A stretch of 10,210 nucleotides of DNA. Origin: Candidatus Methylomirabilota bacterium. Lineage in GTDB: Bacteria; Methylomirabilota; Methylomirabilia; Methylomirabilales; Methylomirabilaceae. Position numbers and translations under genes: made by a program. Shown piece by piece: positions 1-6,166 of the stretch. The DNA is taken from the NCBI GenBank assembly GCA_016200385.1, contig JACQEV010000222.1, forward strand, positions 1 to 10,210, read 5' to 3'. Under the pieces are notes generated by a model, which was not told where the DNA came from, did no database searches, and saw only the letters and a list, made by a program, of their open reading frames with translations. Numbering within the stretch: position 1 is the stretch's first letter; each line of letters begins with the position of its first letter.

Positions 1-35
1 ACCTTCTGAAACACGGCGGTCAGCTTGATCTGCAT
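1..35 (-). CDS. Start of a HicB-like antitoxin/HicB-domain protein (partial, runs off window)
   Basis: An ATG at 33-35 opens a frame reading MQIKLTAVFQK before the window ends. A GAGGAG ribosome binding site sits about 4 nt upstream (the plus strand reads CTCCTC at 38-43). This N-terminus resembles small HicB-family antitoxins, which often begin with a hydrophobic first beta strand of the partial RNase H-like fold ('MQIKLTAVFxKVPEGY...'). In such loci HicB usually pairs with a HicA mRNA interferase toxin. No hicA is visible upstream of this gene, so any partner would lie beyond the window. Only 11 codons are visible, so the family call rests on resemblance recalled from memory; a solitary HicB-like protein is equally possible. 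Confidence 0.45.
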   Translation of the reverse strand, partial: MQIKLTAVFQK

Positions 36-360
36 CGCTCCTCTCTCCAATCGCCTCAGCGTAACGGCAGCCGCGTTCGCATTCCAGCGGTCGCTGCCCG
101 CCTAAATATTAGGTCTACTGCTCCGCTTCCTGCAATCTATTTCGTAAGGTCACTCCAACCCTAGAAACCAAACAACATCGGCAATTTTCGACGCCTCGCA
201 AAACTGCAACAAGCCTCCTCGTATCGCTAAATATTGCGGAGCTCGCAGTCTATCCCGATATCAGCCCGAAATATATTCAGGCCAACAACCCATCGTCAGA
301 GGCGATCCGGAAGGCCGTAGACTCCACGTCCGCCTCGAAGATGAGCGAGGGGAGAGGTCC
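36..360. other. Intergenic region without recognisable gene
   Basis: This 325-bp stretch is richer in A+T than its surroundings. No frame on either strand has a start codon plus ribosome binding site and a recognisable protein. The only patterned elements I see are a short inverted repeat CCTAA-ATA-TTAGG at 101-113 and a second copy of its core, CTAAATATT, at 227-235. Either could be an operator for the HicB-like gene downstream on the minus strand, but nothing shows this. I could not identify a convincing -35/-10 pair. Confidence 0.5.
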
Positions 361-510
361 TTATTTCTTCCCGATGTACTTCTCCGGCGCCTGCTCGAAG
401 GCCCGCTTGCACATTAGCGCACAGAAATAGTAGGTCGTCCCCTGATACACGGCGGTGGCCGCCGCCCGCTTCTCATCCACCATCATCCCGCACACCAGAT
501 CTTTCGACAT
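361..510 (-). CDS. Small YHS-domain protein (49 aa)
   Basis: The frame starts with ATG at 508-510, preceded by GGAGG with 6-nt spacing, and ends with TAA at 361-363. The product is almost exactly one YHS domain. It opens MSKDLVCGMMVDEKRAA, equivalent to the family's 'DPVCGM.v', has an aromatic core YYFCALMCKRAF, and ends PEKYIGKK. Cysteines are at residues 7, 30 and 34 (CxxxC in the second half). YHS domains occur in copper and heavy-metal ATPases, in metal-responsive proteins and as stand-alone small proteins; binding of metal through the cysteines is the usual proposal. There is no signal peptide, so it should be cytoplasmic. It follows the proposed selenoprotein gene on the same strand after 79 bp holding a palindromic repeat, so co-transcription is uncertain. 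The gene is short enough to be missed by length-filtered annotation. Confidence 0.85.
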   Translation of the reverse strand: MSKDLVCGMMVDEKRAAATAVYQGTTYYFCALMCKRAFEQAPEKYIGKK

Positions 511-534
511 CACGTGCCTCCGTGTCCACCTTCA

Positions 535-583
535 CCCTCACTTCGCTCCTCCCTCCCGATGGGGAAGAGGATACAGGTGAGGG
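535..583. repeat. GC-rich nested palindrome (REP-like intergenic repeat)
   Basis: Outer arms CCCTCAC (535-541) and GTGAGGG (577-583) are perfectly complementary. Inner arms CCTC (548-551) and GAGG (567-570) also pair. An apical CCC/GGG stem closes a GAT loop at 558-560, with a two-base mismatch below it. This matches the widespread class of intergenic repeats whose antisense reading gives spurious peptides such as 'SPHLYPLPHREG'. It lies between the selenoprotein stop and the YHS start. It could stabilise the 3' end of the upstream mRNA or attenuate read-through, but there is no U-tract, so it is not a standard intrinsic terminator. Confidence 0.7.
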
Positions 584-589
584 GATCCA

Positions 590-1045
590 CTACCACGGCT
601 GAGACCTGGCGTACTTGCGATCAATGGCCGCCTTGATCTCCGGAATTTTCTTCCCCTGCTTGTACATGGCATACGCCTCCAGCGTAATGTCCTGGCACAT
701 GTCTCACCCAAAGGCGTGCCGGTCCACATAGCAATCGAGGTTGTTCTGATGGCCGTTTCCCTTGAAGCAGCCGCAGTAGCAGGACATCTGTTCGATGAGC
801 TGGGGGACTTGTTTCGCGATTTGGTACGCTCTCGCCGTTTTGCCTTCAAACAGCGCGGGCGAGACCGTCCTGGGACGGGGACGCCTCGGGATCGCGTGAA
901 GGATGCGAGCCTCGGGTTCCGCAGCGCCCAGCGCTGAGCGCTGCCCGCCGATCATCCCGAGCAGGACCCCGACCAGGCCCCCTCCGAGAACCCGGATAAA
1001 CTGTCGCCGCTCCGCTTGTGACACGGATTCGTCCTGTCTGTTCAC
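590..1045 (-). CDS. Tat-exported CYCGC-motif protein, probable selenoprotein (Sec at in-frame TGA 704-706)
   Basis: The frame begins with GTG at 1043-1045, preceded by AGGAGG with 7-nt spacing. It meets TGA at 704-706 and then stays open for 37 codons to TAG at 590-592. Reading TGA as selenocysteine gives 151 residues. Residues 11-40 look like a Tat signal (ERRQFIRV, then a Gly/Leu/Val-rich stretch, then SALGAA). The mature part holds SCYCGCFKGNGH (Cys 89, 91, 93), Cys105 in NLDCYVDRHAFG, then U114-D-M-C117 and an amphipathic tail (LEAYAMYKQGKKIPEIKAAI). From memory, PCYCGC-motif proteins have Cys-x-x-Cys at the equivalent place, so Sec would replace the first Cys. A SECIS-like hairpin follows the TGA. 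The role is unknown; a thiol/selenol redox or metal-binding role outside the cytoplasm is inference. The alternative is a nonsense mutation giving a 113-aa remnant, but the intact tail argues against that. Confidence 0.82.
670..689 (-). promoter_or_regulatory. Bacterial SECIS-like stem-loop just after the in-frame TGA
   Basis: On the minus-strand RNA, nucleotides 15-34 after the UGA fold as follows: CA pairs with UG, one U at nucleotide 17 (plus position 687) is bulged, UACGC (682-686) pairs with GCGUA (672-676), and the apical loop is UGGAG (677-681). Known bacterial SECIS elements have a short upper stem, a bulged U on the 5' side and a G in the first two loop positions. In E. coli fdhF, as I recall it, the bulged U and loop lie at about nucleotides 14 and 19-23 after UGA. 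The arrangement here matches that with a shift of about one codon. The fold was derived by eye, not by an energy calculation. Confidence 0.65.
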
Positions 1046-1127
1046 CGGCCTTCCTCCTGTGGCAAGTCATTGAGAACTGTGTGCATGGTTCTTACTAACC
1101 ACGTGATCAAATGCCATTACCCCGAAG

Positions 1128-1169
1128 GTCCCCCCTCACCCGCACCCCCCCACTTGGGGGCGAGGGGAC
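1128..1169. repeat. GC-rich palindromic repeat downstream of prfB
   Basis: Outer arms GTCCCC (1128-1133) and GGGGAC (1164-1169) are complementary, and an inner CCCCC/GGGGG stem (1147-1151 with 1156-1160) closes an ACTT loop. The composition and layout (CCCCTCACC ... GGGG ... GAGGGGA) resemble the element at 535-583, so both probably belong to one dispersed intergenic repeat family. On the minus strand it begins 17 nt after the prfB stop codon and may protect or partly terminate the long operon transcript. No U-tract follows. Confidence 0.6.
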
Positions 1170-1186
1170 TAAGGATGGTTCAGGTC

Positions 1187-2303
1187 TCACTTCGCTACCC
1201 CGGTCGAAGTCTTCCCCTTCAAGAGAAACGCATCAATGAACGGCTCAATGTCTCCGTCCAGCACCTTCTCCACATTGCCGGTTTCCAGGCCGGTCCGGTG
1301 GTCCTTCACAAGCTGGTAGGGGGCAAGGACGTATGAGCGGATCTGGCTGCCCCATGCGATATCCTTCTTTTCGCCTTCGAGCTTGGCCATCTCCTTGTCT
1401 TGCTCTCGCCGATAGTGGTCATACAGCCGGGAGCGCAGGACCTTCATCGCCATGCCCCGGTTCTTGTGCTGCGAGCGCTCATTCTGGCAGGAGACGACGA
1501 TGCCCGTGGGCAGGTGGGTGATTCGCACCGCCGAGTCGGTGACGTTGACATGCTGTCCACCCGCGCCGCTGGAACGGAAGGTATCGATCCGGAGATCTTT
1601 CTCGTCGATGGCGACTTCTATCTCCTCATCGATCTCGGGGTAGACGAAGACCGACGCAAAGGAGGTATGACGGCGGTGGCTGGCGTCGAACGGCGAGATC
1701 CGAACAAGGCGGTGGACCCCCATCTCGGCTTTTAGTCGCCCATAGGCGTATGCGCCTGTCACGGTGACCGTGGCGCTCTTGATCCCGGCCTCTTCGGCAG
1801 CAAGCAGGTCGATCACTTCGGCACGATAGCCCCTGGCTTCCGCCCAGCGCATGTACATCCGCAACAGCATCTGCGCCCAGTCCTGCGACTCGGTGCCGCC
1901 CGCGCCGGGGTTGATGGAGAGGATGGCGTTGCCCCTGTCATATTCTCCAGCCAGCACCGTCGTCAGCTCGAGCTCCGCAAGCTGTCCCTCCAGCTTCTGA
2001 AGCGAGCTCTCCATCTCTGCGAGGGCCTGCTGGTCCTCTTCTTCTCGCAGGAGCTCGAGGAGGACCTGGAGATCCTCGATCTCGCGTCCCAGGGTCTCCG
2101 GTTGATCAACGACTTCCTTCAGCGCGCGTTGCTCCTTCAAAATATCCTTCGCGCGAGAAGGATCTGCCCAGAACTCCTGCGCGTGGAGTAGCTCGTCGAT
2201 CGCGTTCAGGCGCGCCCGCTTCCCCCCCAGGTCAAAGAAAGACCCGAAGGCCGTCCAGCTTGTCCTTTACGCCCTCGAGCCTGCGCGCGAAGTCAGCGAT
2301 CAT
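1187..2303 (-). CDS. prfB: Peptide chain release factor 2, expressed by +1 programmed frameshift
   Basis: RF2 recognises UGA and UAA stop codons and triggers peptide release on the ribosome. The gene starts with ATG at 2301-2303, with AAAGGAGG 5 nt upstream. Frame 0 encodes 23 residues ending RVFL, then meets TGA at 2232-2234 inside CTTTGAC. A +1 shift continues DLGGKRARLNAIDELL and so on to TGA at 1187-1189. The shifted product is 371 residues (E. coli has 365). The stop-recognition tripeptide SPF falls at about 203-205 and the catalytic GGQ (SSGAGGQHVNV) at about 248-250, almost the E. coli positions. Upstream GNAILSINPGAGGTESQDW is also typical RF2. The ATG overlaps the lnt stop (ATGA), so translation is probably coupled. 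The frameshift lets RF2 level control its own synthesis. Gene callers often report only the 3' part, from about 2140. Confidence 0.97.
2228..2249 (-). promoter_or_regulatory. prfB +1 frameshift site
   Basis: The minus strand reads CGG GTC TTT CTT TGA C. CTT TGA C is identical to the slip site known from E. coli prfB, where peptidyl-tRNA on CUU slips to UUU when RF2 is scarce and GAC is read next. The stimulatory Shine-Dalgarno-like element that precedes CUU by 3 nt in E. coli (AGGGGG) is here only CGGGTC, so pairing with 16S rRNA would be weak. Frame 0 before the site and frame +1 after it both encode plausible RF2 N-terminal sequence, which excludes a random sequencing slip. Confidence 0.9.
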
Positions 2304-3919
2304 CGTATCCTCCTTTGGGAAATGGGAGCCGGCGCCGATGAGATCCGACCGGCACTCCAGGCCCGCCTTGCCATGAACACTGCCACCACGAATGCCACGC
2401 ACAACCAGGCGAAGAGATCACCGTGACTGGTATAAAAGGTCTCACCCTGCTCCAGGCGAATCCGACCCGAGATCACAGCGGGGACGAATAGTCCGGAGAC
2501 TTCCAGGATCCGGCCAGTGGGATCAATGATCGCGGAAATGCCGGTGTTGGCCGCCCGAATCAGGTAGCGGTGGTTCTCGGCAGCCCGAAGGGCCGCCATG
2601 GCCAGATGCTGCGCCGGGGCGGCCGACCGGCCGAACCAGGCGTCGTTGGTGATATTGACCAGGAAGTCGGCCCCGTCCTTCACGTAGCGTCGCACTTGAT
2701 CCGGAAAGATCGCCTCGTAGCAGATGGTGGCTCCGAAGCGACCACGCGGGAGATGAAAGATCGTGTAGGTCCGGCCTGGCTCGAAATCGCCGATCCCGTA
2801 CGCCAGCTTGTGCACGAAAAAGAGAATCGATTTCAGGGGAACGTACTCTCCAAAGGGAACCATGTGGATCTTGTCATACTTGCCAAGCAGCTCACGCTGA
2901 GGAGAGATCAGGAAGGCGCTATTGTGGTAGCGGTCACCCCCGCCGCTTTGCGCCCCTGGCTCGACGTCCGGGCTCCCCACGAGCAGGTAGCTCCCGGTCT
3001 CGGCAGCGATATCGGCAACGCGGCCGCGTAGCGTCGGCTCGTACCGGAGGAAGAAGGGCACGGCGGTCTCGGGCCAGACGATGAGGCCCGGCGCCCCCGT
3101 TGCCGCGTCTAGGCTGAGGCGCCGATAGAGGTCGATGGTCGCCGCCTGCATCGCTGGATCCCACTTCAGGGCTTGATCGATGTTCCCTTGCACGAGGGTG
3201 ACTCCCAGTCCCTGCTCTTCACCGGCACGTGCTGGAGACGGTGAAAGGAGCCTCGGAGACCAGACAAGAGCCAGGGCAAGCACGCCGGTGAGGAGCATGG
3301 TCCGAAGACGGTCTCCAGCCGTGGCAGCCAGTTGCGCCAGCGCGATGTTGACGAGGATCACCAGGAACGACAGACCGTACACGCCTGTGACTGAGGCAAT
3401 GGGCAAGAGCGTGTTGCTCCGGTACTGAGTGTACCCCAGCAAGGCCCAGGGGAACCCGGTCAACGCGTAGCTGCGGAGGTATTCCAGGGCAACCCATAAC
3501 GCCGCGGGGGCCAGAAGGCCGATTGGCCACGCGGCGGCCCCGATCAGCGAGAGGCCATAGCAGAACAGGCCAAAATAGAGCCCGAGATATGCCGACAACG
3601 CCAGGAGGACAAGAGCGCTGACGGAGAACGACATGCCCCCATACGTCGTCATCGTTCGCGTCACCCACGAGATGCTCAAGAGATAGAACAGCAATCCCGC
3701 GAGACTTCCCCACCAGAAGGCCCGAGCCGGGGGCTCGCCGCGAATGACCACAAGGAGCGGAACTAGGGCAACAAATGCCAGCCCTCCTATATCTGCGGTT
3801 GGGAATGCGAGAGCAAGGAGTCCCGCTGAGACGGTCGCCAGCAGGGCTGGCCTGAGACCCCGAAGGACTCCGGTTCGCCAGCCGCTCACCGAGGCCTGGC
3901 TGAAAGGAATCACACCCAT
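2300..3919 (-). CDS. lnt: Apolipoprotein N-acyltransferase
   Basis: Lnt is an inner-membrane enzyme that N-acylates the diacylglyceryl-cysteine of lipoproteins, using phospholipid as acyl donor, before Lol-dependent sorting. From the ATG at 3917-3919 the protein has 539 residues, close to the usual 510-540. The N-terminal part is strongly hydrophobic with several membrane segments. It is followed by the periplasmic nitrilase-fold domain carrying the catalytic triad: Glu284 (IVWPETAVPF), Lys350 (KYDKIHMVPFGEYVP) and Cys400 (GATICYEAIF). NITNDAWFG follows, and a last membrane segment lies near the C-terminus. An upstream in-frame start near 4054 is open but lies deep within cdsA and adds a non-hydrophobic Arg/Gly/Pro-rich stretch, so I reject it. 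The gene overlaps cdsA by 10 bp and prfB by the ATGA. No strong ribosome binding site is seen (GGCGGG directly precedes the ATG), so translation is probably coupled to cdsA. Confidence 0.95.
   Translation of the reverse strand: MGVIPFSQASVSGWRTGVLRGLRPALLATVSAGLLALAFPTADIGGLAFVALVPLLVVIRGEPPARAFWWGSLAGLLFYLLSISWVTRTMTTYGGMSFSVSALVLLALSAYLGLYFGLFCYGLSLIGAAAWPIGLLAPAALWVALEYLRSYALTGFPWALLGYTQYRSNTLLPIASVTGVYGLSFLVILVNIALAQLAATAGDRLRTMLLTGVLALALVWSPRLLSPSPARAGEEQGLGVTLVQGNIDQALKWDPAMQAATIDLYRRLSLDAATGAPGLIVWPETAVPFFLRYEPTLRGRVADIAAETGSYLLVGSPDVEPGAQSGGGDRYHNSAFLISPQRELLGKYDKIHMVPFGEYVPLKSILFFVHKLAYGIGDFEPGRTYTIFHLPRGRFGATICYEAIFPDQVRRYVKDGADFLVNITNDAWFGRSAAPAQHLAMAALRAAENHRYLIRAANTGISAIIDPTGRILEVSGLFVPAVISGRIRLEQGETFYTSHGDLFAWLCVAFVVAVFMARRAWSAGRISSAPAPISQRRIR

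Positions 3920-5407: not shown

Positions 5408-6166
<759 letters not shown>

Follow-up and report, generated by a model that had tools for sequence, protein, structure and literature searches.

Among the predicted selenoprotein families listed in excerpts of PMC9312934 is a "hypothetical protein OS_HP4" with the motif UxxC, and excerpts of PMC13188914 catalog a "CYCXC family protein (hypothetical protein OS_HP4)" with the domain PF13798 and the same motif, both citing Zhang and Gladyshev 2007. The excerpts of PMC13188914 also report a prediction of 63 selenoprotein genes for one Methylomirabilota genome. Within open-license PubMed Central, we found no functional study of this family under the names PCYCGC, CYCXC, OS_HP4, PF13798, or NF041379. 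Here, we describe a gene on a 10,210-nucleotide (nt) stretch of DNA (the window) from the phylum Methylomirabilota, probably from the genus Methylomirabilis, whose in-frame UGA at codon 114 is almost certainly read as selenocysteine (Sec), which would make it a selenoprotein of the CYCXC/PF13798 family.

The predicted protein matches the NCBIfam model NF041379, "CYCXC family (seleno)protein" (OS_HP4_CYCXC), over residues 58 to 145 with a score of 124.4 bits (cut-off 90), and PF13798 (PCYCGC) with 52.9 bits (gathering cut-off 25). Like the members described by that model, it carries CYCGC (residues 89 to 93) followed by U-x-x-C (U114 to C117), and we saw no difference from NF041379/OS_HP4 in the domain itself. 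An earlier note on this DNA, made from the sequence alone, had placed the protein in a PCYCGC-like family, which the PF13798 match bears out, and was not aware of that family as an established selenoprotein family. On this second point it was mistaken, given the NF041379 model and the naming of the family as OS_HP4 in the excerpts of PMC9312934 and PMC13188914, and the idea of a novel selenoprotein family is ruled out on the same grounds. The earlier note was thus right on the biology and wrong on the novelty: the gene is a further member of a known selenoprotein family.

In the window, the gene occupies the minus strand, with its GTG start codon at 1045-1043 and its TAG stop codon at 592-590. 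Its features are as follows.

590 to 1045, minus strand: selenoprotein gene of the CYCXC (OS_HP4)/PCYCGC family, with a GTG start, 151 residues including Sec114, and a TAG stop, as translated with TGA read as Sec.
1053 to 1058, minus strand: ribosome binding site AGGAGG, called from the sequence, 7 nt 5' of the GTG.
956 to 1045, minus strand: region of a predicted N-terminal export signal, with the twin-arginine-like motif ERRQFIRVLGGG and a hydrophobic stretch, called from the translation.
767 to 781, minus strand: CYCGC motif (C89, C91, and C93), part of the set of residues that is invariant in 18 chosen members.
704 to 706, minus strand: UGA codon 114, almost certainly Sec, first position of U-x-x-C, with TGA in relatives and cysteine (Cys) in plasmid homologs.
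672 to 686, minus strand: core of a candidate bacterial selenocysteine insertion sequence (SECIS) hairpin, UACGC-UGGAG-GCGUA, called from fold, position, and codon conservation.

The frame described in the earlier note, for which no strand had been given, is therefore present at the same coordinates, with 113 codons before the TGA and 37 codons after it, a good ribosome binding site, and five Cys residues besides the Sec (C89, C91, C93, C105, and C117). Read as an ordinary stop, the TGA would leave a 113-residue product followed by chance or decayed sequence. The open tail would be unremarkable on that reading: 167 of the 423 stop codons in the six frames of the window have at least 37 open codons after them, and a tail of this length is by itself within chance expectation. 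What establishes read-through, at the level of sequence comparison, is homology, and it is because of the conserved TGA and the conserved sequence beyond it, not because of the open tail itself, that we read this codon as Sec.

We searched 84,980 species genomes using P0002 as a query, a search that has only close relatives within reach and therefore barely samples the spread of the family outside Methylomirabilota. Six relatives were confirmed by tblastn, one Desulfobacterales locus and five Methylomirabilota loci, of which two share an assembly; each of the six has TGA at this site, followed by conserved sequence. TGA at U-x-x-C, again with conserved downstream sequence, was also present in all 49 genome places that we read besides the window; these 50 places are the 30 best (window included), 19 weaker ones, and one in genome G005, and three of the 49 appear to duplicate records already among the six tblastn relatives. 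When we searched 99 genomes, among them that of the window, with the family model, 70 gave matches and 35 gave matches above the cut-off. Among the 83 matches listed, 81 contain one TGA and one contains two, while the sole TGA-free match is a 26-position piece that stops short of the site.

Homologs on plasmids supply the corresponding Cys. We found 40 plasmid records with a homolog and fetched eight that were chosen by hand; seven of these eight carry Cys at the Sec site with the CxxC motif kept, and the remaining one, from Thermomicrobium roseum, has TGA there. PF13798 (PCYCGC) proteins, which include Bacilli (lipo)proteins and proteins from copper islands on Burkholderiaceae plasmids, share with the window protein CxCxC, H99, C105, and, where Sec stands, a CxxC, and differ from it in that the seven members read carry Cys in place of Sec. 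In an alignment of 18 family members (A3), hand-chosen to span the groups, C89, C91, C93, H99, C105, Sec/Cys114, C117, and I137 are invariant. The gene therefore has the mark of a bacterial selenoprotein, an in-frame UGA that aligns with Cys in homologs and is followed by conserved sequence. The tblastn check proposed in the earlier note comes out in the same way, since homologs show TGA or Cys at position 114 and conserve the sequence past it, and the claim of a selenoprotein with U-x-x-C holds.

Together with the synonymous conservation past the UGA and the selA, selB, and selD genes described below, the conservation of tail and TGA in the homologs read and the Cys in seven of the eight plasmid homologs make an ordinary stop very improbable. 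Still more remote is the reading in which TGA is generally a sense codon in this genome or the gene is a pseudogene. We found no supporting point for either; TGA occurs at one site in many genomes, a Desulfobacterales genome included, and is paired with Cys on plasmids, and the gene is present in 70 of 99 genomes. We rejected an ordinary stop, a pseudogene, and general recoding of TGA on this conservation and the Sec/Cys pair. The earlier note had also expected standard annotation to lose the tail, which is the case for one relative, the T. roseum plasmid coding sequence, which stops exactly at the TGA.

The sequence just past the UGA has several features consistent with a bacterial SECIS. The candidate hairpin starts about 17 nt past the UGA, and its apical loop lies 22 nt from it. 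Across 12 sequences, drawn from the window's genus plus a Desulfobacterales sequence, codons +5 to +11 are the identical codon in 100% of comparable cases, versus 62% elsewhere, and this stretch ranks at the top of 46 seven-codon windows for synonymous conservation (1.00 versus 0.62). Two other groups of Sec-encoding sequences show the same trend at the hairpin stretch (0.88 versus 0.73 in group A; 0.87 versus 0.66 in group B), with one other codon window in group A slightly above it (0.90). It is this combination of hairpin position and synonymous conservation that marks the hairpin as a SECIS candidate.

Machinery for Sec incorporation is encoded in the window's genome as well. We identified selB (383.5 bits, cut-off 242.25), selD above its cut-off, and selA, which is in two pieces at two contig ends. 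The selD gene carries an in-frame TGA (L050, G000:C210:9680-10606), and SelD of this genome is probably itself a selenoprotein. Elsewhere in the genus, a tRNA-Sec match above the cut-off is present in 13 of 15 genomes, and ARAGORN calls tRNA-SeC in all 10 loci scanned among these matches.

Several observations weigh against Sec decoding. We did not find selC in the window's assembly, which is 81% complete; of 293 candidates from a first look, 150 were scored, and a follow-up search, using the tRNA-Sec of a relative, was run with no positive control. This negative result also counts in favor of an ordinary stop. The earlier note had proposed a search for the four sel genes and would have given up its reading if selB and selC were lacking; selA, selB, and selD are present, and the absence of selC applies solely to this incomplete assembly, in a genus where most genomes have the match noted above. 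The codon stretch +5 to +11 was picked after the alignment had been seen. In addition, the window's 71-nt fold is not lower in energy than dinucleotide shuffles (z of -0.91), and the fold energy of the window's group is about that of synonymous shuffles (mean z of -0.34, 10 sequences).

The same comparison with synonymous shuffles gave energies much lower than expected for group A (mean z of -2.27, 11 distinct sequences) and moderately lower for group B (mean z of -1.15, 20 sequences), with upstream control windows between -0.57 and -0.08 and no consistent effect in the seven Cys homologs. Codon conservation, not folding energy, is the informative SECIS test here. A scan of window positions 1 to 2400 against Rfam found no SECIS; its three matches, to eukaryotic or viral families (E of 0.66 to 5.5) and all below gathering scores, were treated as chance.

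Decoding of UGA codon 114 as Sec would take place with the help of the SECIS hairpin downstream. The Tat-like (twin-arginine translocation) signal may then carry the folded protein across the membrane. The signal has a twin-arginine motif followed by a hydrophobic stretch, and a motif scan was positive in all 11 genus loci and in 21 of 46 loci overall. Of the earlier claim that the protein is Tat exported, the motif stands, and export itself is a prediction. The mature domain is predicted to be a small helical unit with two redox or metal motifs, the first being CxCxC plus His99 and Cys105 and the second U-x-x-C at the start of a helix. The selenol/thiol pair could exchange disulfides, or could hold Cu(I) and pass it on, and might thereby help to assemble or protect cell-envelope sites for copper or cytochrome c. 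We put forward this functional step tentatively, and judge its chances to be a little below even.

One reason to consider disulfide exchange is the resemblance to CcmH (PF03918; PDB 2hl7), the thiol protein of cytochrome c maturation, which appears from our structure model to share a small helical exported domain with CxxC. The model is of moderate quality (mean predicted local distance difference test score of 68.8, poor for residues 1 to 60 and mostly better for 61 to 150) and was built from seven sequences; a sequence search of the PDB gave no relevant match. Since the fold search had suggested CcmH, we chose it for a profile comparison with hhalign. The alignment of the family profile (52 sequences) to the CcmH profile (30 segments from related genomes) scored 19.2 (P of 0.0011, hhalign probability of 8%) and paired U/CxxC with the CxxC of CcmH, with gaps of 15 and 13 columns. 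The maximum was 5.8 among 11 shuffled or reversed controls and 8.9 among 49 real-protein controls (27 small alignments and 22 single sequences), while the 46 Sec members and the 6 Cys members taken separately scored 16.1 and 11.9 against CcmH.

This similarity of fold and profile is suggestive, with no significant sequence match: none of the 18 A3 members matched PF03918 at E values up to 10. Unlike the window family, CcmH has no CxCxC block in the 30 segments read, and the spacing between CxxC and the last helix is off by 13 columns. A separate CcmH is present in 54 of 60 related genomes, and none was found in the window's own 81% complete assembly. A search of open-license PubMed Central for selenoproteins together with CcmH returned unrelated papers only. 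The resemblance appears weak, and we do not file the protein as CcmH. A CcmH-like thiol-disulfide (selenol) exchange protein, acting in c-type cytochrome or metal-site assembly and fed by DsbD/CcdA/TlpA-type partners, is nevertheless quite possible, if somewhat short of probable.

The gene neighborhood hints at copper. In the window, it includes the following gene.

361 to 510, minus strand: gene for a 49-residue YHS-domain protein, downstream of the selenoprotein gene (PF04945, 51.4 bits, cut-off 30.3).

A YHS match lies downstream in all 13 genus loci examined, and the gene immediately upstream encodes a P-type ATPase in 10 of the 11 genus loci whose upstream sequence was examined. All 10 of these ATPases have a CPC motif and at least one MxCxxC motif, and the one that was scanned has HMA and YHS domains and matches the copper subfamily TIGR01511 (636 bits, cut-off 397). 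Near the Desulfobacterales locus are genes for a multicopper oxidase and an HMA protein. On plasmids, six of the eight homologs hand-chosen from the 40 sit amid heavy-metal genes and two do not; several of these islands are plainly copper islands, with multicopper oxidase, CopC, CopD, CueR, and a four-helix copper protein. The Caballeronia plasmid copy (L067, about 5799-6119) has an in-frame stop ahead of its annotated start; intact relatives exist. From these neighbors and the predicted shape, we infer a connection with the handling of copper or the assembly of cytochromes outside the cell membrane.

The protein could instead be mainly a carrier or store of Cu(I) or another soft metal, with Sec and Cys as metal ligands and not as a redox pair. 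All invariant residues of the 18 chosen members apart from I137 are possible ligands, seven in total, and the copper-type ATPase and YHS neighbors in the genus would fit such a role, as would the setting of the plasmid homologs amid genes for multicopper oxidase, resistance-nodulation-division pump, CopC, and CopD. Set against this, metal baits are absent near most Sec loci outside the genus, and Sec is seldom known to be retained solely to bind metal. We regard a carrier role as an appreciable possibility, though one clearly on the doubtful side.

The proposed function in copper or cytochrome c sites, by disulfide exchange or Cu(I) transfer, also has points against it. Outside the genus, just 7 of 34 loci had any of the 22 bait proteins nearby, in a search that used single sequences as bait and can miss distant relatives. 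One subfamily, group B, instead has a cluster with a thiamine-diphosphate enzyme (identified in a scanned member) downstream in 11 of 20 loci (L114-L119, L124, L126, and L130-L132). The plasmid figure of six in eight is a raw count, uncorrected for how often plasmid genes in general lie near metal-resistance genes. Finally, the window differs from the other NF041379 loci of its genus in being the one without the upstream ATPase, with prfB there instead, and a search of its genome for that ATPase gave distant matches only, the best at 67 bits; the window copy does have the Tat-like signal. Among the 50 group A neighbors scanned, out of 84 neighboring open reading frames, cytochrome c families and ethylbenzene-dehydrogenase-type families appear repeatedly.

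The upstream gene (window 1187-2303, minus strand) appears from its sequence to be prfB, encoding release factor 2 (RF2). It begins with a 23-codon frame ending in CTT TGA C (TGA at 2232-2234) and continues in the +1 frame, as is typical of RF2 frameshifting. The release factor that recognizes UGA is thus encoded beside a gene in which UGA is recoded; with prfB as bait, no match was found in the other 47 loci searched. At the contig end (window 1-35, minus strand), a frame read by eye starts with MQIKLTAVFQK and runs off the contig, a start that presumably resembles those of HicB antitoxins.

Our reading of homologs also brought out a second Sec-encoding PF13798 subfamily, comprising 19 loci (L074-L092) and L071, in most of which U-x-x-C is followed by DITRDVM or a near variant. 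The 19 weaker places read score 41.6 to 65.8 bits with NF041379, under the cut-off of 90, and three Sec members of the second subfamily, including that of T. roseum, score 57 to 62 bits with TGA read as a residue. This subfamily therefore escapes the NF041379 cut-off, and in one relative the coding sequence ends at the UGA.

Taken together, the gene adds one member to a listed selenoprotein family and offers a lead on what this family, described so far as hypothetical or of unknown function, may do. The pairing of Sec in the window family with Cys in copper-island plasmid proteins is a useful addition. A more specific proposal, rather unlikely as a whole, makes PCYCGC/CYCXC a remote CcmH-like thiol protein of the cell envelope. 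Its attacking residue would be Sec in Methylomirabilota and Desulfobacterales but Cys in other organisms, and it would cooperate with copper exporters, YHS proteins, and reductases of the DsbD/TlpA type in loading or protecting sites for copper and cytochrome c. If true, the CcmH-like reading would supply a function for a selenoprotein family labeled "hypothetical" since 2007.
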